A DNA stretch of 64,000 nucleotides. Source: Streptomyces sp. SID8352. Its GTDB lineage: Bacteria > Actinomycetota > Actinomycetes > Streptomycetales > Streptomycetaceae. Position 1 is the first letter of the stretch; each line of letters opens with the position of its first letter. The stretch covers positions 157,551-221,550 of the forward strand of contig NZ_WWGX01000022.1 of the NCBI RefSeq assembly GCF_009862265.1, read 5' to 3'. Positions 3,230 to 32,525 of the stretch are shown here, piece after piece. Position numbers and translations under genes: made by a program. The notes beneath the pieces were generated by a model, which saw only the letters and a list, made by a program, of their open reading frames with translations, was not told the origin of the DNA and did not search any database.

Positions 3230-4150
3230 TCAGGAGGCGGTGGTGACCGCGGGTACGTCGAGCTGGGCCGCGTACGGCATGGACGACTGGGCGCCCAGTC
3301 CGGTGACGGCGTGGGACGCGGCGCGCACGGCGCGTTCCACCGCGGCCGCGAGGCTTCCGCCCCGGCCGAGGGCGTCCGCGAGGGCGCCGCAGAAGGTGTC
3401 GCCTGCGCCCACGGTGTCGACGGCGTTCACGACGGGCGCGGGAACGTGGGTGATCGTCGGATCGTGCGCCTCCTTCAGGATGGCGCCGTCCGCGCCGAGT
3501 GTCACCACCACGGCCCGGCACGGCAGCGCGGCACCGGCCAGCAGCGCGCGCGCCCCGTCGAGGGTGGTGGGCGGCTCGGTTCCGAGCAGCGTGGCGAGTT
3601 CGCCCAGGTTGGGGACGAGGACGTCGACGGCGGCGAGGGTCTCCCGCGACGCCGGACGGGCGGGGGCCGGGTTGAGGACGACGAGTCCGCCCTGCTCACG
3701 GCCGCTCCGGACGGCGGCGTCCACCACGTCCTGGGCGATCTCGTTCTGGACGAGGACGACCTCGCCGGGCGAGCGGACCAGGCGGGCCGGGAGGTCCTCG
3801 ACGCCCAGTTCGGCGTTGGCCCCCGCGTTCACGACGATGGTGTTCTCGCCGTCGCTGTCCACGACCACCGCGGCGATCCCCGTGGGGACCCGCTCGTCCG
3901 ACCGCACGTCGGCGATGTCCACCCCTTCGGCGGCGAGCGCGCCGAGGATGGCGGTCCCGTCCGCGCCGACCCGGGCCACGAGGCGCACCCGCGAACCGAG
4001 GCGGGCGGCGGCGACGGCCTGGTTGGCGCCCTTGCCGCCGGTGCCCTCCACGAAGTGCCGGCTGAGAACGGTCTCGCCGGGGCGTGGCAGGTCCCGGACG
4101 GTCAGGACGAAGTCTCGGTTCACCGAACCGACGACCGTGATGGACGACAT
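3230..4150 (-). CDS. rbsK: Ribokinase, PfkB family (RcaD-like)
   Basis: A 306-residue PfkB-family sugar kinase. The sugar-binding GGKGANQAVAAARLG motif lies near residues 38-52, and the ATP-side DTVGAGDTFCGALADALG motif, with the catalytic Asp, near residue 250. The N-terminal GSVNRDFVLTV and the NPAPARP segment fit ribokinase. It would convert D-ribose and ATP to ribose 5-phosphate. Start choice: an AAGGAG site (4156-4161) lies 5 bases before ATG 4150, whereas the in-frame GTG at 4156 abuts it and is rejected. It is the first gene of the operon, with the palindromic operator directly upstream. In this context its ribose would come from cleavage of riboflavin. Confidence 0.88.
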   Translation of the reverse strand: MSSITVVGSVNRDFVLTVRDLPRPGETVLSRHFVEGTGGKGANQAVAAARLGSRVRLVARVGADGTAILGALAAEGVDIADVRSDERVPTGIAAVVVDSDGENTIVVNAGANAELGVEDLPARLVRSPGEVVLVQNEIAQDVVDAAVRSGREQGGLVVLNPAPARPASRETLAAVDVLVPNLGELATLLGTEPPTTLDGARALLAGAALPCRAVVVTLGADGAILKEAHDPTITHVPAPVVNAVDTVGAGDTFCGALADALGRGGSLAAAVERAVRAASHAVTGLGAQSSMPYAAQLDVPAVTTAS

Positions 4151-4274: not shown

Positions 4275-5267
4275 GTGACAGCGCCCCGACTCATCGACGT
4301 GGCCGAGGCGGCCGGTGTCTCCCGTGCCACCGCGTCACGCGTACTCGCGGGTACGCCCCGCAACGTCGCGCCCGATCTCGCGCGCCGCGTGGAGGAGGCC
4401 GCCCAGCGGCTCGGCTACCAGACCAACCACTCCGCGCGGGCCCTGCGCACCGGCACCACCGGCACCGTCGGCGTCGTCGTCCCCTCGCTCGCCAACCCCT
4501 ACTTCGTCCAGCTCGCCGACGCCCTGGCGCGGCGGGTGCGGGCGGGCGGGGGCACCCTGGTGGTCTCCGACGCGGACAACGACACCCGGATCGAGGCCGA
4601 GCAGATAGACGCCCTGCTCGGCGGCCCGGTGGACGGCCTGATCGTGGTCCCCGTCTCGGCGGGCGGGTCCGGGGCGGCCGTCCGCGCGGCGGCGGAACGC
4701 CGTCCCGTCGTGTTGTTCGACCGCTGGGCCGAGGGCTCCGGCACGGTCGCCGTCACCCTGGACAACGCCGCCGCGATCCGGCTCCTCGTCGAGCATCTGC
4801 GGGGCATAGGGCGCAGCCGGATCGCCCTGGTGGCCGCCGACCAGGCGTCCTCCTCCGGCGCCGAGCGCCTCGCCGCCTTCGTGGCGGCGCAGGGCCCCGA
4901 CGCCACCACCGTCCTGCTGCCCAACTTCACCACCGATTCGGGGCGGTTGGCGGGCCGCCGCATCATCGAGCAGGGCGACCGGATCGACGCCGTCGTCTGC
5001 GGCGCGGACGTCCTCGCGGTGGGCCTGGTCAGCACCCTGCACCGGTCCGCCGTCGCGGTGCCCGGCCAGATCGCCGTCACCGGCTTCGACGACACCGAGA
5101 TCCTGGAACTCCTCGACCCGCCGATCACCTCCATCAGGCACCCGCTCCCCGCCATGGCCGAACGCGCGCTGACCCTGCTCGGCGGCCCGGCCCGGCAGCG
5201 CTCGGAACGGGTCGAGCGGTTCGCCCCGGAACTGGTGGTCCGCGCCTCCACGGAACTGGCCGACTGA
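4275..5267 (+). CDS. LacI-family transcriptional repressor of the riboflavin operon
   Basis: A 330-residue regulator with a canonical N-terminal helix-turn-helix (LIDVAEAAGVSRATASRVLAG, residues 5-25), the hinge region (QRLGYQTNHSARALRTG) and a periplasmic-binding-protein-like sensor domain ending ITSIRHPLPAMAERALTLL. The start is GTG 4275, right before the HTH; upstream in-frame codons belong to no recognisable protein. It is divergent from the ribokinase operon with 124 bp between starts, and the perfect palindrome at 4161-4178 is its likely site. The effector is probably a small sugar-like or flavin-derived ligand (ribose, riboflavin or lumichrome). That is inference, since LacI ligands cannot be read from sequence. 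Confidence 0.88.
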   Translation: MTAPRLIDVAEAAGVSRATASRVLAGTPRNVAPDLARRVEEAAQRLGYQTNHSARALRTGTTGTVGVVVPSLANPYFVQLADALARRVRAGGGTLVVSDADNDTRIEAEQIDALLGGPVDGLIVVPVSAGGSGAAVRAAAERRPVVLFDRWAEGSGTVAVTLDNAAAIRLLVEHLRGIGRSRIALVAADQASSSGAERLAAFVAAQGPDATTVLLPNFTTDSGRLAGRRIIEQGDRIDAVVCGADVLAVGLVSTLHRSAVAVPGQIAVTGFDDTEILELLDPPITSIRHPLPAMAERALTLLGGPARQRSERVERFAPELVVRASTELAD

Positions 5268-5875: not shown

Positions 5876-8800
5876 ATGGAGGACGTGCGCTATCGCATTC
5901 TCGGCCCCACCCAGGCACTCCGCCCCGACGGCACCGCCGTCCCGGTCGGCGGCGCGCGGCTGCGTGCCCTGCTGACCGTGCTCGCCCTGCGACCCGGCCG
6001 CGCGGTGCCCGCGGGGCTGCTGGTGGAGGAGGTGTGGGGGGACGAACCGCCCGGTGACGCGCCGGGCGCGCTGCAGGCGCTGGTCGCGCGGTTGCGCCGG
6101 GCGCTCGGGGCGGCCGCGATCGCCTCCGAGGGCGGCGGCTACCGGCTCGTCGCCGCGGCCGACGACATCGACCTGTACCGCTTCGACCGGCTCGCCGCCG
6201 AGGGCACCCGGGCGCTGGCCGACGGCGACCCCGCCAAGGCGGCCGAGTGCCTGGACGACGCCCTCGCCCTCTGGAGCGGCCCGGCCCTGGCCGATCTCCC
6301 CGACCGCACCTCCGAGGCCGCCCGCTGGGACACCCGGCGGCTGGATGCCCTGCGTGCCCGGCACACCGCCGCCCTCGGCCTCGGCCGGGCCGAGCGGTCG
6401 CTGCCCGAGCTGACCGCCCTGTGCGACAGCCACCCCCTCGACGAACCCCTCCAGGCGCTGCGGCTGCGCGCCCTGCGCGACACCGGCCGGGCCGCCGAGG
6501 CGCTGGCGGCCTACGAGGACGTGCGGCGGCTGCTGGCGGAGCGGCTGGGCACCGACCCCGGGCCAGAACTCCGCGCCCTGCACGCGAGGCTGCTCGACCC
6601 CGGCGGGTCCGGCCCCGGTCCTGCCCGCCCCGGGGCTGCGTCGTACACCGGCCCGTCGCTTCGCGGCACCCCGAGCACCGGGCCACCGGACACCGGCGCG
6701 CCGGGCCCTGACGTACCGCACCCTGACGTACCGCACCCGGACGTACCGCACCCGGACGCGCCGCACCCGGACGCGCCGCACCCGGCTCCGGCGCGCCCCG
6801 GCCCGGCGGAGCGCCCCCTCGGCCCCGGCCGCCCGGGGCCGTCCCGCCCGGCCCCGGCGCCGTCCGCGCCGGCGGCCCCCGGGCCCGCGCGGGCGCCCGC
6901 ACCGGCGGCCCCGGCGCCCGGGACACGGGCACCGGCGGACTCCGCGCCGCAGGGCCCGCGTCCCGCCCCCGCCCCCGGCGCCCCGGCCGCCCGTCCGCGC
7001 GGCAACCTCCGGGCGCGGCTCACCTCCTTCGTCGGGCGGGACGCCGATCTGGCGGCGCTGCGGGAGGACCTCTCCGGCGCCCGGCTGGTCACCCTGCTCG
7101 GGCCCGGCGGGGCCGGGAAGACCCGGCTGTCGCTGGAGGCCGCCGAGGGGGCGGCGGACGCCGCGCGGGACGGTGCCTGGCTGGCCGAACTGGCCCCCGT
7201 GGACGACCCGGACGCCGTGCCGGAGGCGGTGCTGACCGCCGTCGGCGCCCGCGAGACCGTGCTCTACGGCGCCGGCGCCGAGGAGTTGAGGGCCGTCGCC
7301 GAGCGCCGGGCCACCGCCGTCGAACGCCTCGTGGAGCACTGCGGACGGCGCCGCATGCTGATCGTCCTCGACAACTGCGAGCACGTCGTGGACGCCGCCG
7401 CCCGCCTCGCCGAGGAGCTGCTCGCCCGCTGCCCGCACCTCACGGTCCTCGCCACCAGCCGCGAACCCCTGGGCGTTCCGGGGGAGTCGCTGCGGCCGGT
7501 GGAGCCGCTGCCGGAGCCCGCCGCGCTCCGGCTGCTCGCGGACCGGGGCGCCGCCGCCCGGCCGGGCTTCCGCCCCGGCGCCGACGAGGAGACCGCCGCG
7601 GCCTGCGCGGAGATCTGCCGCCGCCTCGACGGGCTGCCGCTCGCCATCGAACTGGCCGCCGCCCGGCTGCGGATGCTCACCCCCCGCCAGATCGCCGACC
7701 GCCTCGACGACCGCTTCCGCCTGCTCACCTCCGGCAGCCGCACCGTGCTGCCCCGCCAGCAGACCCTGCGCGCGGTCGTCGACTGGTCCTGGGACCTGCT
7801 CGACGAGGACGAGCGGGACACCCTGCGGCGGCTGTCGGTCTTCGCGGGCGGCTGCGACCTCGCCGCGGCCGAGGCCGTCTGCGGGCCCACCGCCCTGGAC
7901 ACCCTCGGCTCCCTCGTCGACAAGTCCCTGGTCGTCGCCGCCCCCTCGGGCGACGGGGAGATGCGCTACCGCCTGCTGGAGACCGTCGCGGAGTACGCCC
8001 GGGAACGGCTCGACGAGGCCGGCGGCCGGGCCGGGGCCGAGCGCGCGCACCTCACGTACTACCGCGAACTGGCCCGCACCACCGATCCGTTGCTGCGCGG
8101 ACCCCGGCAGCTCGCCGCCGTGGAACGGCTGGAGCGCGAGTACGAGAACCTCCGCACCGCCCTGCGCCACGCCGTGGCCCAACGGGACGAGCAGGAGGCA
8201 CTGTCCCTCTCCCTGTCGCTGATCTGGTACTGGCAGATGCGCGATCTGCGGGTGGAGGCCCGGAACTGGCTCCGTGAGGTCATGGGGCTGGGCCCGGACC
8301 CCTTCACCGAGCCGGCGCGCCCCGCCGAGCCGGTCTGGCAGCGGTGCACGGACGTGCCGCCGCCGCTGGGCGGCGAACTGCTCGCCGAGGCCCGGCGCGG
8401 CGTCCACCTCGCCCATCTCGCCTGTATGGACACCGAACTGGACGCCTGGCAGAACCCGGCGGCCCAGCGCAAGCTCGCCACCATCGCCCGCACCTACGAG
8501 CCCGGCATGCCGCAGACCTGCACCAGCCCCGGGCTGCTCTGGTTCTTCGCGGTGATGCTCACCGGCCAGGTGGACCGGCTGCACGAGATCATGGACGCCG
8601 CGGTGCGCACCTGCCGCGAGACCCCGGGCTTCGAGTGGGAGCTGGCCGGGAGCCTCCAGATGCGCGCCAACATGCTGGCCAACCGCACCCACTGGGCGGG
8701 CGACGCCACCCGGGACGCCGACGAGGCGCTGGAGATCTACGAGCGGCTCGGCGACGGCTGGGGCGTCGCCGAGGCCCTCGCCGCCCGCGCCGAGGCCCGG

Positions 8801-26871: not shown

Positions 26872-27741
26872 TCAGCGCGCGGGCACGCTCCGCCCGTCCC
26901 CGGAACGTTCCGGCAGCGGCTCCGGCACCCTCGGCAGCGCGTACGGCAGCCGCCCGTACCAGGCCGTCGCCACCGCGAACCCCGCGGCCAGGCAGAGCAG
27001 CCCGCCCACCGCGTCCAGCCAGAAGTGGTTGGCCGTCGCCACGATCACCACCAGCGTCAGCACCGGGTACAGCAGCCCCAGCACCCGCGCCCACGGCACC
27101 GAGGCCAGCGCGAACAGGGTCAGCCCGCACCACACCGACCACCCGATGTGCATCGACGGCATCGCGGCGTACTGGTTGGACATGTTCTTCAGGTCGCCGG
27201 AGGCCATCGACCCCCAGGTGTCGTGGACCAGGACGGTGTCGATGAACCCGCCCCCGTTCATCAACCGGGGCGGTGCGAGCGGATACAAGTAGTAACCGGC
27301 GAGCGCCGCGCCGGTCGTGGCGAACAGCACCAGCCGCGTGGCCCCGTACCGTCCCGGGTGGTAGCGGTAGAGCCACACCAGGACACCCAGCGTCACCACG
27401 AAGTGCAGTGTCGCGTAGTAGTAGTTCATGCCGACGATCAGCCACGTGACGGAGTTGACCGCGTGGTTCACCGACTTCTCGACGGCGATGCCGAGTTGCT
27501 GCTGGGTCTGCCAGATCCAGTCGGCGTTGCGCAGCGCCTTCCCCCGCTGTTCCGGCACGGCGTTGCGGACCATCGAGTACGTCCAGTAACTCACCGCGAT
27601 CAGCAGGACCTCGAACCACAGCCGGGGCCGCCGCGGGGTGCGCATCCGGCGCAGGAGCCGCCGCCCCGACGCCCCGTCAGCGACAGGGCGCCGGGGGGCC
27701 TCGCCGAGGCCTTCCGAAGTCGTCGTGATCGCGTCGCCCAT
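26872..27741 (-). CDS. PAP2-superfamily membrane protein
   Basis: A 289-residue protein with about six membrane helices. Phosphatase-like motifs are GMNYYYATLHF, a divergent first motif in GYYLYPLAPPRLMN, AAMPSMHIGWSVW (PSMH motif) and VVIVATANHFWLDAVGG (HxxxD motif). This combination matches inositol phosphorylceramide synthase/AUR1-like PAP2 proteins, which transfer phospho-head groups on lipids. The substrate is unknown. ATG 27741 (MGDAITTTSEG) begins the better-conserved part; upstream codons are low quality. It is convergent with glnE. The stretch from 27742 to malR contains no further gene. Confidence 0.85.
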   Translation of the reverse strand: MGDAITTTSEGLGEAPRRPVADGASGRRLLRRMRTPRRPRLWFEVLLIAVSYWTYSMVRNAVPEQRGKALRNADWIWQTQQQLGIAVEKSVNHAVNSVTWLIVGMNYYYATLHFVVTLGVLVWLYRYHPGRYGATRLVLFATTGAALAGYYLYPLAPPRLMNGGGFIDTVLVHDTWGSMASGDLKNMSNQYAAMPSMHIGWSVWCGLTLFALASVPWARVLGLLYPVLTLVVIVATANHFWLDAVGGLLCLAAGFAVATAWYGRLPYALPRVPEPLPERSGDGRSVPAR

Positions 27742-27886
27742 AGGTCCAGAGTCTGCCAGAAAAGCCTTCTTTCCCCGATCATCCCCCCACCGGTCCACGC
27801 GCGCACACGCAGGGCCCCGCGAACCGCCCGGAGCGGGCCCCCAAAAGGGCCGGGAAAGGGGAGAAAGTGCCTGGTCCGGCGGGTGT

Positions 27887-28921
27887 TCAGCCCCGTCCGC
27901 GATCGCCCGGCGCCGAGGCGGTCGAACCGCGCACCACCAGTTCCGGCATGAACACGAACTCGCTGTGCGGGGCGGGCGTTCCGCCGATCTCCTCCAGCAG
28001 CGTCCGCACCGCGGCCTGCCCCATCGCCGGGACCGGCTTGCGCACGGTGGTCAGCGGCGGGTCGGTGAAGGCGATCAGCGGGGAGTCGTCGAAACCGACG
28101 ACGGAGACGTCACGGGGCACCTCCAGGCCCCGCTGCCGGGCGGCGCGTATCGCGCCCAGCGCCATCATGTCGCTCGCGCACACCACCGCGGTGCAGTCCC
28201 GCTCGATCAGCGCGCCCGCCGCCGCCTGGCCGCCCTCCAGCGTGTACAGGGAGTGCTGGATCAACTCCTCCGCCACGGTCTCGGAGTCCAGGCCGAGTTG
28301 CTCGCGCATCACGGTCAGGAAGCCCTCGATCTTGCGCTGCACCGGCACGAACCGCTTCGGCCCGAGGGCCAGTCCGATCCGGGTGTGCCCCAGCGAGACG
28401 AGGTGGGTGACGGCGAGGTGCATCGCGGCCCGGTCGTCGGGGGAGATGAACGGCGCCTGCACCTTCGGGGAGAAGCCGTCGACCAGTACGAACGGCACCC
28501 CCCGGGCCCGCAGCCGCTCGTAGCGCTGGGTGTCGGCGGTGGTGTCGGCGTGCAGCCCGGAGACGTAGATGATGCCGGAGACCCCCCGGTCGACCAGCAT
28601 CTCGGTCAGCTCGTCCTCGGTGGAGCCGCCCGGTGTCTGGGTGGCGAGGACGGGGGTGTAGCCCTGGCGGGTCAGCGCCTGGCCGATGACCTGGGCCAGC
28701 GCCGGGAAGATGGGGTTCTCCAGCTCCGGGGTGATCAGTCCGACCAGCCCCTCGCTGCGCTGCCGCAACCGCACGGGACGCTCGTAGCCGAGGACGTCGA
28801 GAGCGGCGAGTACGGAGTGGCGGGTGGCGGCGGCGACGCCCGGCTTCCCGTTGAGGACCCGGCTGACCGTCGCTTCGCTCACCCCCGCCTGGGCGGCGAT
28901 GTCGGCAAGCCGTGTGGTCAC
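27887..28921 (-). CDS. malR: LacI-family maltose repressor MalR
   Basis: A 344-residue LacI regulator: HTH TRLADIAAQAGVSEATVSRVLNG (residues 3-25), hinge-region LGYERPVRLRQRSEG and a sugar-binding core with TPELENPIFPALAQVIGQAL and VVGFDDSPLIAFTDPPLTTVRKP. Sequence and length match Streptomyces MalR, which represses maltose/maltodextrin uptake and hydrolysis genes and is relieved by maltose-type sugars. GTG 28921 gives the usual family length; ATG 29014 would add a 31-residue non-conserved extension. It is divergent from a maltose-type promoter whose binding-protein gene appears deleted. Motifs of CTTGCA type lie on both sides of the intergenic region. Confidence 0.9.
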   Translation of the reverse strand: MTTRLADIAAQAGVSEATVSRVLNGKPGVAAATRHSVLAALDVLGYERPVRLRQRSEGLVGLITPELENPIFPALAQVIGQALTRQGYTPVLATQTPGGSTEDELTEMLVDRGVSGIIYVSGLHADTTADTQRYERLRARGVPFVLVDGFSPKVQAPFISPDDRAAMHLAVTHLVSLGHTRIGLALGPKRFVPVQRKIEGFLTVMREQLGLDSETVAEELIQHSLYTLEGGQAAAGALIERDCTAVVCASDMMALGAIRAARQRGLEVPRDVSVVGFDDSPLIAFTDPPLTTVRKPVPAMGQAAVRTLLEEIGGTPAPHSEFVFMPELVVRGSTASAPGDRGRG

Positions 28922-29037
28922 ACCGGTGGACTGTACCTGCCGTAGATCCCTTTGCGCACCGACGGGCCGCCGCCCGCGGTCCGTCGGGCGCCCCGGCGCG
29001 GGCTGCTGCGTCATCGCGGTCCCTGGGAGAAGTCGTG

Positions 29038-29060
29038 GCAAGGGCTTGCGGAGTCTTGCA
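29038..29060. promoter_or_regulatory. MalR-type box, malR-proximal
   Basis: GCAAGGGCTTGC (29038-29049) is an inverted repeat of GCAAG/CTTGC, followed by CTTGCA at 29055-29060. MalR of Streptomyces is known to bind CTTGCAG-type repeats, so this is a probable autoregulatory site. Confidence 0.55.
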
Positions 29061-29147
29061 CAACCGGCCCGATACCGCTCGGGCGTCGACAACAACCGGC
29101 TTCCCGTGATCGCTCGGAGCCTCGGCCCGGGGCGACTCACCGGATCT

Positions 29148-29168
29148 CTTGCGCTTTTTTTCTGCAAG
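29148..29168. promoter_or_regulatory. MalR-type box at the former malE promoter
   Basis: CTTGC (29148-29152) and GCAAG (29164-29168) flank an 11-base T-rich centre, giving an inverted repeat of MalR half-sites. It lies about 125 bp upstream of the orphan start codon at 29293 and would now control the GH13 gene. Confidence 0.5.
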
Positions 29169-29292
29169 TCCTTTCGTCCGGCTCGCGTCGCTGTTACGTT
29201 CACGTCGCCCGGCGGCGGCAACGGCGCGGTCGGCGGCGGGCGCGGCGGACGGGCCCGCCCGCACACCCGGGCCCTCACCCCGAGGAGAACTC

Positions 29293-29316
29293 ATGCGGCG
29301 TGGCACGGCGGCCACC
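29293..29316 (+). pseudogene. Possible 5' remnant of malE (binding-protein start codon and first codons)
   Basis: ATG 29293 is preceded by a strong GAGGAG site and opens MRRGTAAT, plausible as the start of a lipoprotein signal peptide. The frame then becomes Pro/Arg-rich nonsense and runs out of phase through the GH13 gene. In other Streptomyces malE, malF and malG sit exactly here between malR and the glucosidase. I infer a deletion that removed them. The MalE match is from memory and unverified. Confidence 0.4.
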
Positions 29317-29452
29317 GTCCCGCCGGCCCCCGCGCCCCGGTGGCGAGGGCGGCGGCAGCGGTGCCCACCGGACCCCTCCGTCACCGCGGAGCCGCCCCGC
29401 CGCCGGCCCGCCGCCACCGTGCCCCCCGACCGACCCCGTACGCGAGGACACC

Positions 29453-31168
29453 ATGAGCCAGCAGCACACCGCCGCCCCGGTCCCCACCCCCGCACCGGCC
29501 CCCACCCGGGCCGTGGCCCCCACCCCCGCCCGGCCCGCCGCCGCACCCCGCGACTGGTGGCGGGACGCGGTCATCTACCAGATCTACCCCCGCAGCTTCG
29601 CCGACAGCGACGGCGACGGGATGGGCGACCTGGAAGGCGCCCGCACCCGCCTGCCGTACCTGCGCGACCTCGGGGTGGACGCCGTGTGGCTAAGCCCCTT
29701 CTACGCCTCCCCGCAGGCCGACGCCGGGTACGACGTCGCCGACTACCGGGCCGTCGACCCCGTTTTCGGCACCCTCGCCGACGCCGACGCGCTGATCCGC
29801 GACGCCCACGGGCTGGGCCTGCGCGTCATCGTCGACCTCGTACCCAACCACTCCTCCGACCGGCACGAGTGGTTCCGGCGCGCCCTCGCCGAGGGCCCCG
29901 GATCGCCCTGCCGGGACCGCTACCACTTCCGGCCCGGCAAGGGCCCCCGCGGGGAACTGCCGCCCAACGACTGGGAGTCCGTCTTCGGCGGCCCCGCGTG
30001 GACCCGGGTCACCGAGCCGGACGGCACACCGGGGGAGTGGTACCTGCACCTCTTCGCCCCCGAGCAGCCCGACTTCAACTGGGAACACCCCGCCGTCGGC
30101 GACGAGTTCAGGTCCATCCTGCGGTTCTGGCTCGACAGGGGCGTCGACGGGTTCCGCGTCGACGTCGCCCACGGCATGGTGAAGGCCGAGGGCCTGCCCG
30201 ACCTGGAGTCGGGGGAGCAGCTCAAACTGCTGGGCAGCGGCGTCATGCCCTTCTTCGACCAGGACGGCGTCCACGCCATCTACCGGCAGTGGCGGCTGAT
30301 CCTCGGCGAGTACCCCGGCGAGCGGATCTTCGTCGCGGAGGCCTGGACGCCCACCGTCGAGCGGACCGCCCGCTACGTCCGCCCCGACGAGCTGCACCAG
30401 GCGTTCAACTTCCAGTACCTCACCACCCACTGGGACGCGGCCGAGCTGCGCTCCGTCATCGACCGGACCCTGGACGCCATGCGCCCGGTCGGTGCCCCCG
30501 CCACCTGGGTGCTCTCCAACCACGACGTCACCCGGCACGCCACCCGCTTCGCCAACCCGCCCGGCCTCGGCACCCAGATCCGCCTCGCCGGGGACCGCGG
30601 GACGGGCCTGCGCCGGGCGCGCGCCGCCACCCTCCTCATGCTGGCCCTGCCCGGATCGGCCTACGTCTACCAGGGCGAGGAACTCGGCCTGCCGGACGTC
30701 GTCGACCTGCCCGACGCGGTGCGCCAGGACCCGGCCTACTTCCGCGGCGACGGCCAGGACGGCTTCCGCGACGGCTGCCGGGTGCCTCTCCCGTGGACCC
30801 GCGGCGGCACCTCGTACGGCTTCGGCGGCGGGGGGAGCTGGCTGCCGCAGCCGGAGGGCTGGGGCGCACTGAGCGTCGAGGCGCAGACCGGTGTGCCCGG
30901 CTCCACCCTGGAGCTGTACCGGGCCGCGCTGGCCGCCCGCCGCGCCCACCCCGACCTGGGCGCGGGCGACGCCGTCCAGTGGCTCCCCGCGCCCGAGGGC
31001 GTCCTCGCGCTGCGCCGGGGCCGCTTCGTCTGCACGGCCAACACCACCCGCGAGCCGGTGGTCCTCCCCACCCCCGGACGCCTCCTCCTGTCCAGCGCCG
31101 ACACCGCGACGGAAGGACCGGAGACGGTGCTGCCCCCGGACGCGACGCTCTGGTGGGACGCCCCCTGA
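29453..31168 (+). CDS. aglA: GH13 alpha-glucosidase (AglA-like, maltose locus)
   Basis: A 571-residue cytoplasmic GH13 enzyme without a signal peptide. Conserved regions in order are WWRDAVIYQIYPRSFADSDGDGMGDL (residue ~35), DLVPNHSS (region I), GFRVDVAHG (region II, nucleophile Asp), FVAEAW (region III, acid/base Glu) and SNHDVTRHATRF (region IV, stabiliser Asp). The QIYPRSFADSDGDG pattern is that of oligo-1,4/1,6-glucosidases, which release glucose from imported maltose or maltodextrin. The Ala/Pro/Thr-rich first 30 residues are a linker. ATG 29453 has GAGGACACC upstream. It is expected to be under MalR, but the cognate MalEFG transporter is missing. Confidence 0.93.
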   Translation: MSQQHTAAPVPTPAPAPTRAVAPTPARPAAAPRDWWRDAVIYQIYPRSFADSDGDGMGDLEGARTRLPYLRDLGVDAVWLSPFYASPQADAGYDVADYRAVDPVFGTLADADALIRDAHGLGLRVIVDLVPNHSSDRHEWFRRALAEGPGSPCRDRYHFRPGKGPRGELPPNDWESVFGGPAWTRVTEPDGTPGEWYLHLFAPEQPDFNWEHPAVGDEFRSILRFWLDRGVDGFRVDVAHGMVKAEGLPDLESGEQLKLLGSGVMPFFDQDGVHAIYRQWRLILGEYPGERIFVAEAWTPTVERTARYVRPDELHQAFNFQYLTTHWDAAELRSVIDRTLDAMRPVGAPATWVLSNHDVTRHATRFANPPGLGTQIRLAGDRGTGLRRARAATLLMLALPGSAYVYQGEELGLPDVVDLPDAVRQDPAYFRGDGQDGFRDGCRVPLPWTRGGTSYGFGGGGSWLPQPEGWGALSVEAQTGVPGSTLELYRAALAARRAHPDLGAGDAVQWLPAPEGVLALRRGRFVCTANTTREPVVLPTPGRLLLSSADTATEGPETVLPPDATLWWDAP

Positions 31169-31476
31169 CCCGCCCGCGGGGGAACGGTTTCCGGCCGTCG
31201 CCGCCCCCGGGCCCCGCCGTCGTCCGTACGCCGGCGGAGGGCCTCGGGGGCGGTACGGGGGCCGCCGGTCCGCAAGCGCTTTCCTCCGCATTCACCGTTC
31301 TTGCCGCAAGGATTGCGCGAAAGGGTGCCCTGCCGCCCCGCCGGAGGCCGCGAGGGCGCCCCGCCGACGGGCACCGAACGGTTCCGGTCGCGCCGTCACC
31401 GTGTTTGCTCCGGCCAACTCGCCTCTCGCGGAGGGAAGTTAGGGTGAGCCTCGCTGTCCGGAGAACAGGAGGGCCC
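31169..31476. other. Gene-free spacer with possible promoter region
   Basis: 308 bp between the glucosidase and the isomerase gene. It holds a TTAGGGTGAGCCT segment (31439-31451) that loosely resembles one arm of an iron box, too degenerate to call. No gene seen. Confidence 0.4.
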
Positions 31477-31839
31477 ATGCCGCAGATCACCGTCGACTAC
31501 TCCGTCGAACTCGCGGACGGTTTCGACCGCCCCGCCCTCGCGCGGGAACTGCACAGCGCCGTCACCGGAATCGCGTATGCCGGACCGGCGGTGTGCCGGA
31601 CCCGCTTCCGTCCCGTCGAGGACGTCGTGGTCGGCCCCGGCGACCAGGGCCGGGGCCAGGTCCTCGTCCACGTCGGCATCGCCCTGCCGTTCGGGCGCAC
31701 CGACGACGTCCAGCGCCGCCTCACCGGGGCGGTGGTGGAGCTGGTGCGGCGGCGGGTGCGGACACCTCCCGGCATGGTGCTGCACGTGTCGGCCGAGTCC
31801 CGCGACCGGGAGAACTCCTACCGCGAGTCGACGGGCTGA
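31477..31839 (+). CDS. 5-carboxymethyl-2-hydroxymuconate isomerase-like tautomerase
   Basis: A 120-residue protein of the CHMI/HpcD branch of the tautomerase superfamily. After Met removal it would start with the catalytic Pro (MPQITVDYSVEL). The rest matches the CHMI layout (ALARELHSAVTGIA, RPVEDVVVGPGDQG, VLVHVGIALPFGRT). CHMI isomerises a muconate in homoprotocatechuate degradation, but no other gene of that pathway is nearby, so the real substrate is open. The AGGAGG site lies six bases before ATG 31477. Its 3' end overlaps the convergent TetR gene by 22 bp. Confidence 0.8.
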   Translation: MPQITVDYSVELADGFDRPALARELHSAVTGIAYAGPAVCRTRFRPVEDVVVGPGDQGRGQVLVHVGIALPFGRTDDVQRRLTGAVVELVRRRVRTPPGMVLHVSAESRDRENSYRESTG

Positions 31840-32525
31840 CCCAGCAGTCCGGTGAGCCGGCCGGCCAGCTCCGCGAAGGGGCCGTCGGCCGGCTCGCCGG
31901 CCATCACGCGCCGCACCAGCGCGGCCGTCCCCTCGTCCTGGACGGCGCCCACCGCCAGCAGCGCGGCGAAGTCGTGCACGAGCTGCGTCTCCAGCTCGGC
32001 GCGCGGCACCCGCCGCCCTTCCAGCCAGATCAGCGCCTTCGACTCGGCCAGCGAGATCCAGGACCGGACCACCAGCTCCAGCCGCGCGGGCGGGTCGGCC
32101 ACCTCCAGATGCGCCAGGATCTGCCGGTAGGCGGCCAGCCGCACGGAGTCGACCAGGGCGTTCTCCGTGGCGGAGCCGACGGCCGGACCGCCGCGCAACA
32201 GCGCGGAGAAGACCGGACCGTGCCGGTCGGCGAAGTCCAGGCAGCGCCCGGTCACCCGCAGCAGCCGCGCCCCCAGCGGGCCCGTTCGCGGCTCCTCGAA
32301 CCGCGCCGCCAGGTCCTCCGCGGCACGCCCCAGCGCGGCCTCGTACAGGCTGAGTTTGCCGGGGAAGTAGTGGTAGACCAGCGGGCGCGAGATGCCCGCC
32401 GCCGACGCTATCTCGTCGAGTGAGACCTCATCGGGCGAGCGGCGGCCGAACAGGTCGAGGGCGACGCCGATCAACTGCTCCCGGCGCTCCTCGACGCCCA
32501 TCCTGCGACGCGCCCCGATAGCCAT
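31818..32525 (-). CDS. TetR-family transcriptional regulator
   Basis: A 235-residue regulator with HTH VSLDEIASAAGISRPLVYHYFPGKLSLYEAAL (residues ~34-65) and an all-helical ligand domain. The motif LVYHYFPGKLSLYEAALGRAAEDLAARF is found in many Streptomyces TetRs of unknown ligand. ATG 32525 reads MAIGARRRMGVEERREQ; ATG 32501 (MGVEERREQ) is an alternative. It is convergent with the CHMI-like gene, with overlapping 3' ends. No operator could be identified. Confidence 0.88.
   Translation of the reverse strand: MAIGARRRMGVEERREQLIGVALDLFGRRSPDEVSLDEIASAAGISRPLVYHYFPGKLSLYEAALGRAAEDLAARFEEPRTGPLGARLLRVTGRCLDFADRHGPVFSALLRGGPAVGSATENALVDSVRLAAYRQILAHLEVADPPARLELVVRSWISLAESKALIWLEGRRVPRAELETQLVHDFAALLAVGAVQDEGTAALVRRVMAGEPADGPFAELAGRLTGLLGQPVDSR

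Follow-up and report, generated by a model that had tools for sequence, protein, structure and literature searches.

A mal locus of Streptomyces sp. SID8352 reduced to malR and aglA, with relics of malE and of the malG-aglA spacer at the join

Introduction

MalR and the malEFG genes of the malR-malEFG-aglA maltose/maltodextrin operon have been studied in Streptomyces coelicolor and S. lividans. In Streptomyces sp. SID8352, a stretch of 64,000 nucleotides, here called the window (contig NZ_WWGX01000022.1 of assembly GCF_009862265.1, positions 157,551 to 221,550), carries the LacI-family regulator gene malR and, divergent from it, the GH13 alpha-glucosidase gene aglA, with malE, malF and malG all missing between them. 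An initial annotation of this DNA read the arrangement as a deletion of the transporter genes that had kept regulator and hydrolase. What became of malEFG, and what could MalR and AglA still do where nothing is imported by this route?

Results

The start of malE is joined to the malG-aglA spacer

The window aligns with the mal loci of relatives from the MalR boxes across a conserved promoter block and the ribosome site to base 25 of malE. At the ATG at 29293 it reads MRRGTAAT where the malE starts of relatives read MRRGIAAT, and 23 of the 25 bases agree with a consensus from 18 relatives. The next best place in the window scored 17, the best in 164 kb elsewhere in the genome 18, and eight Markov shuffles gave 18–19; a malE start arising by chance is ruled out by these controls. 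Downstream of the malE start, 29318–29452 matches the malG-aglA spacer of relatives in blastn (for example 77% over 96 bases, E 1e-12). Since the malE start matches on one side and the malG-aglA spacer on the other, everything from malE codon 9 through to the spacer is missing, a stretch that in 74 relatives has a median length of 3337 bp (range 3258–3447) and holds malF and malG complete as well as most of malE. The interval containing the junction is bounded, at its widest, by the end of the malE match and the start of a stem-loop model described below; certain spacer matches reach back to 29318, before the start of that model.

Accordingly, the elements that the initial annotation had listed as remaining, namely malR with its boxes, GAGGAG, the ATG with MRRGTAAT and an aglA start 160 bp farther on, are all in the sequence, the frame at 29293 does resemble malE starts, and the proposed deletion between malR and the glucosidase is borne out by both relics and by the loci of relatives. 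We propose that about 3.3 kb was deleted between codon 8 of malE and the spacer preceding aglA, taking the rest of malE together with malF and malG; malR and the divergent promoter with its MalR boxes would have stayed, and aglA would have become the gene directly downstream of that promoter. We found no evidence against the deletion itself, and the locus is very probably a deletion derivative of the mal operon. The malE relic and aglA are in different frames, and that of the relic is open through aglA as far as 31839, joining a small CHMI-like gene in frame; a start at the relic would traverse aglA in the wrong frame, and this open frame is taken as no gene.

The source assembly (7.78 Mb, listed completeness 100) is a draft in 114 contigs, and the short arrangement might for that reason be suspected to be an assembly error. 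We consider this very unlikely, because the junction sits within a 573 kb contig, both relics carry changes unseen in the relatives aligned, and the assembly lacks both a malE match at E ≤ 1e-30 and a close malF.

The short arrangement is derived

The malR region was compared at 40 loci from other genomes, 38 of them from 35 congeners and 2 from other genera, and MalE, MalF and MalG were all present at 34 of the 38 congener loci. In the first type of locus (type 1), the order is malR, then divergent malE-malF-malG-aglA, as the initial annotation had stated for the genus, followed mostly by genes for an alpha-amylase and a large amylase-pullulanase. At one such locus (L041), the amylase has Pfam amylase domains and an N-terminus that reads by eye like that of a secreted protein, and the larger protein has an amylase domain and scores above the NCBIfam pullulanase-type cut-off. 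An independent scan with AglA covered the best 80 loci (78–87% identity to the window's AglA in the best segment; records very near the source genome were possibly left out), and 78 of them carried malEFG. The other two reach contig ends: L111 starts at a contig edge, and L174 (Streptomyces violaceoruber NRRL S-981) has only a broken piece of malG, which within 198–1600 lies just downstream of an IS605-type OrfB/TnpB gene; its contig ends beyond this gene. Amylases are likewise not beside aglA in L174, so that this locus may be another independent loss.

Because malEFG is present at 78 of the 80 related aglA loci and the other two lie at contig ends, the short form is derived; the close relatives compared do not have it. 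In a tree built from PAP2 and MalR, the window groups with malEFG-bearing type-1 rows (support 82, not starred). The opposite polarity, an ancestral short form into which malEFG was inserted in relatives, would accord with the other congeners that are also without malEFG at the same place; it is nevertheless ruled out by the relics of malE and of the malG-aglA spacer in the window, by the 78 malEFG-bearing loci, and by the presence of malEFG in diverged form in another mal locus type. This second type (L055–L076), whose MalE is in most cases 41–50% identical to that of the first, often has two malR and two aglA genes flanking malEFG.

Set beside the Streptomyces malR-malEFG-aglA operon, the window has the same divergent malR, a promoter with CTTGCAG-core repeats, a downstream aglA and the same flanks; it differs in lacking malE, malF, malG and the downstream amylase genes and in having aglA as the first gene. 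Being without malEFG, it is therefore a deletion derivative and not a working maltodextrin operon. The locus is a variant of a known one, with an operon reduction specific to its lineage. According to passages of PMC6828939, Actinoplanes sp. SE50/110 also has a maltase gene beside its LacI-type repressor gene (amlE-amlR); that organism has malEFG as well, whereas the pair in the window is a remnant of deletion, and membership is not claimed.

No close relative of MalE, MalF or the secreted amylase in the genome

In the window 308 bp separate aglA from the CHMI-like gene; at the loci of 34 relatives the median is 7170 bp and the least 1168 bp. Another loss, of about 6.9 kb by the median of the relatives, would thus have taken the downstream genes for the secreted amylase and the amylase-pullulanase. 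Queried with a relative's secreted amylase, the whole genome gave nothing better than E 6e-4. For the amylase-pullulanase, for which no dedicated search was made, the genome has no further PF00128 match of the strength seen in L041 (339 bits); its strong PF00128 matches are only AglA and two copies at contig ends at about 270 bits, the one on C20 being TreS. Where relatives have the amylase promoter, the window holds three near-MalR cores at 31270–31310 (CCGCAAG, CTTGCCG, CCGCAAG), a cluster that is suggestive only of a relic of that promoter. Within 31169–31476 a relic of this kind was rejected on alignment, an ungapped 40-base match of 19/40 being equalled by 77 of 500 random stretches.

No match to MalE (query from L041) was obtained in the source genome at E ≤ 1e-30, and MalF has only distant relatives there, of which the best shares 31% identity (E 4e-31) and none exceeds 35%, a value reached over 120 residues. 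Two claims of the initial annotation stand in part. Its statement that ABC transporter genes are absent is right for the locus and wrong for the genome, which has 60 permease-domain matches and 12 SBP_bac_1 matches, none of them close to MalE or MalF; its deletion did keep regulator and hydrolase, but the loss is larger than described and includes the amylase and amylase-pullulanase genes. Relocation of malEFG, which it had advised looking for, was rejected, as the genes were not found in the genome by the MalE, MalF and SBP_bac_1 searches; MalG was not searched alone.

A non-orthologous transporter might instead import maltose or maltodextrin and so supply both AglA and MalR. The SBP_bac_1 and permease-domain matches, and one OB_MalK-bearing ATPase in the genome, leave room for such a system. 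Against it, the MalF relatives are distant, the secreted amylase is gone too, and among the seven of the 12 SBP_bac_1 proteins that were scanned, one is an NgcE above cut-off, none reaches the MalE cut-off, and three others adjoin genes of families GH20, GH3 and GH1, whose enzymes serve in chitin or cellulose use. A shared MsiK ATPase serving other importers would explain the retained OB_MalK-bearing ATPase. No good substitute maltose transporter was seen among the MalF relatives and the seven binding proteins, and we regard this explanation as unlikely. The view of the initial annotation that maltose or maltodextrin uptake is either lost or taken over by another transporter stands as a prediction. 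Under the deletion reading, the strain would no longer feed on external starch or maltodextrin by this route.

malE was lost repeatedly in the genus and aglA was kept

In a sample of 392 congeneric genomes that includes the source genome, eight, the source genome among them, had no MalE match at E ≤ 1e-30. Four more (G118, G211, G277 and G296) had only weak MalE matches and loci without MalE, which brings the genomes without MalE at the locus to 12, that of the window included. This count leaves out G010 and G399, the latter a genome 55% complete with a mal locus that is frameshifted but present; in G174 a contig edge just past aglA makes the absence of MalE less sure. In G195 and G248 the spacing between malR and aglA is about 3.6–3.7 kb, and transporter genes therefore fit there.

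All 12 MalE-less loci have kept aglA (11 of 11 outside the window), in G174, G373, G392, G118 and G211 as a more diverged copy, 61–68% identical to that of the window. MalR was matched in eight of the 12, being truncated in G277 and interrupted in G373. In none of the 12 is there an amylase beside aglA; the contigs of G136 and G174 end too early for this comparison, and both genomes were searched whole. Genome-wide, nine of the 11 other genomes had no amylase match at E ≤ 1e-20, whereas a 60% relative is present in G373 and a fragment in G174. The amylase was thus lacking in 10 of the 12 MalE-less genomes, window included, versus none of 12 hand-chosen MalE-bearing controls (Fisher p 6.7e-5, uncorrected for relatedness). 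Because aglA was kept in 12 of 12 and a relative of the secreted amylase was missing in 10 of 12, these results suggest that AglA has a role besides feeding.

The scars of G031, G178, G136, G182, G174, G373, G277 and G296 were read base by base, and those of G392, G118 and G211 by gene content. All eight base-read scars differ from that of the window, and G031 and G178 are alike; a deletion common to the window and other genomes is thereby ruled out for these eight loci. Like the window, the loci of G031/G178, G136, G182, G277, G296 and others have lost malEFG beside PAP2 and kept aglA, and in G031/G178 and G136 the mal promoter region, judged by eye, also runs straight into aglA. They differ from the window in that no malE start is seen in G136 and G031/G178, G182 has fragments of malE and malG, G277 has fragments of malR and malG, and malR is gone from G296. 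On a quick PAP2 and MalR tree of 59 rows, in which many branches are weak and any number is approximate, the 12 MalE-less rows need at least eight changes; the starred branches alone force at least five, in a group table that counts G399 and leaves out the window.

A stem-loop in the malG-aglA spacer is altered in the window

Most type-1 malG-aglA spacers contain a long GC stem around the loop CCATCCGACCCCGCTG (for example at 8722–8787 in L041 and 7881–7946 in L097, with the other 69 in alignment A1). From 113 spacer rows, 88 had at least 11 of 14 loop bases, and the 74 with at least 13 and sufficient flank were retained; these comprise 71 distinct sequences. The constancy of the loop is overstated in this set because the loop was matched in row selection; the stem was not selected. 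Across the 71 distinct sequences, 98.6% of stem cells pair. Changes on both sides were found at 11 of the 13 stem pairs (shuffles averaged 3.3, slid versions at most 4) and in 40 stem cells (shuffles 4.5, slid versions at most 6). One-sided changes stay paired as G-U in plus-strand RNA, which favours an RNA made from the plus strand. No Rfam family matched at gathering score in the window, and all 18 matches in L041 8600–8900 were far below gathering scores. No publication on the malG-aglA stem-loop was recognised by title or abstract start among the matches listed, in a search that subscription papers mostly fall outside.

Model R1, applied to whole genomes, found one strong copy in each of six MalEFG-bearing type-1 genomes tried (E ≤ 3.2e-10), two of which had a second match at chance level, and gave none or only chance-level matches in nine other genomes. 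In the source genome the single match at E ≤ 0.1 is the copy in the window (E 0.022; fold −49.6 kcal/mol, z −2.85). There the stem still pairs and the loop is altered, and L174 has a nearly unchanged loop with a partly broken stem; these alterations suggest that the stem-loop serves the intact operon. At L048, L101, L103, L113, L139, L153 and L157, inspection by eye revealed a short GC-rich, repeat-like stretch (GGGGGGACCCCCA) within the 5' arm of the stem-loop, resembling a small mobile repeat.

malR and aglA are uninterrupted, and aglA is partly constrained

The intergenic region of the window carries one exact putative MalR core site and near cores at places aligned with those of relatives. 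The core CTTGCAG is given in parts of PMC5526262; its exact form occurs once in the 64 kb window, within the inverted repeat of the malR/malE promoter. In S. coelicolor, sections of PMC6988585 report binding assays that confirmed MalR sites in the corresponding intergenic region, one of them overlapping a GlnR site. MalR itself is of the mal type and divergent from the promoter, with best matches in most congeners at 84–91% identity and the same genomic place, and it probably still controls aglA.

By sequence, the nearest solved structure to AglA is the alpha-glucosidase 8yif (540 bits), in alignment with which the GH13 motifs GFRVDVAH, FVAEAW and NHD are in place, and maltase activity is predicted. 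We take these motifs to hold the catalytic residues. The genome encodes TreS, GlgE, GlgB, TreY, TreZ, two GlgX and a maltokinase-like protein below its cut-off, and internal maltose and maltodextrin metabolism therefore remains. In S. venezuelae, trehalose is turned into maltose inside the cell by the GlgE pathway, as described in parts of PMC5042117, and passages of PMC6828939 state that maltose phosphorylase activity was absent from extracts of S. coelicolor, S. lividans and S. glaucescens. AglA would then act mainly on maltose and short maltodextrins from the turnover of internal trehalose and glycogen. That AglA clears internally made maltose is a role we put forward tentatively.

Rates were compared with 36 relatives for AglA and MalR and 31 for PAP2. 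The rates weigh against a maintained role of aglA. Of 37 AglA proteins, that of the window has evolved fastest (median amino-acid distance 0.146, versus a median of 0.086 over taxa), and at 11 columns that do not vary among the other 36 it carries a private change; the median for other taxa is 1. MalR ranks third of 37. One MalR half-site is altered from CTTGCAG to CTTGCGG, and the R1 match in the source genome is weak taken alone, with chance-level E values of 0.05–0.1 in other genomes. The rate and private changes of AglA fit relaxed or shifted constraint. Its median pairwise dN/dS is 0.25, versus 0.165 among the others. Given this ratio, the fastest rank and the private changes, aglA is under constraint, though of a weaker or different kind than in relatives.

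The same rates and private changes, the altered half-site and stem-loop, and the other lineages in which malR is lost or broken would also be expected if the whole locus were decaying after starch feeding was lost, with malR and aglA as leftovers without a selected role. We hold this possible, though doubtful. malR and aglA are both uninterrupted, the AglA motifs are kept and its dN/dS is well below 1; moreover, aglA is kept at all of the other MalE-less loci, of which four have no malR and two a broken one.

A broader scheme may be sketched on the reading of repeated importer loss. Such loss would have fused the MalR-controlled promoter to aglA more than once, making an internal maltose-balancing switch, and a structured spacer RNA with a near-constant loop would set transporter versus hydrolase output, a constraint lost without the transporter genes. 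We offer this scheme as speculation and think it rather improbable. As a gene loss the case is of an ordinary kind, with an unusually readable scar (junction within about 23 bases), and it is a natural deletion mutant of a well-studied regulon. Together with the parallel cases, the window offers a way into the functions of MalR and AglA in the absence of import; worth following are the parallel losses in which aglA is retained and, as a candidate expression-setting element, the stem-loop between malG and aglA.

Layout of the locus and its flanks

The features of the locus are collected in Table 1. PAP2 on one side and the CHMI-like and TetR genes on the other are the flanks of the mal operon in congeners.

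Table 1 Features of the reduced mal locus, in window coordinates
Feature	Position	Strand	Basis
PAP2 membrane protein	26872..27798	-	Pfam PF14378; conserved malR-side flank, same neighbour in relatives
malR, LacI-family regulator, 375 aa	27887..29014	-	Pfam LacI and Peripla_BP_3
MalR operator-like direct repeat CTTGCGG..CTTGCAC (CTTGCAG..CTTGCAC in most relatives)	29045..29061	+	Alignment, site scan
MalR operator-like inverted repeat CTTGCGC..CTGCAAG	29148..29168	+	Alignment, site scan
Conserved malE promoter block GCTGTTACGTTCACGTCGCCC	29190..29210	+	Same or near-same in most relatives aligned
malE ribosome site GAGGAG	29282..29287	+	Aligns with AAGGAG of relatives
malE relic, first 8 codons (MRRGTAAT) and one base	29293..29317	+	Alignment with relatives
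Interval holding the deletion junction, at widest	29318..29340		malE match ends at 29317; stem-loop model starts at 29341
Decayed copy of the malG-aglA stem-loop	29341..29408	+	Model R1, blastn to spacer of relatives, fold
aglA ribosome site GAGGA	29444..29448	+	Read from the sequence
aglA, GH13 alpha-glucosidase, 571 aa, uninterrupted	29453..31168	+	Pfam PF00128
Site of second loss (secreted-type alpha-amylase and amylase-pullulanase genes)	31169..31476		Spacing versus relatives
Small CHMI-like gene	31477..31839	+	PF02962 just under cut-off; DNA match to same place in relatives; flank beyond amylases
TetR-family regulator	31818..32525	-	Pfam; conserved flank, same neighbour in relatives

Elsewhere in the window, a second region encoding a LacI-type protein lies at 4287–5252 on the plus strand and is 33% identical to MalR.

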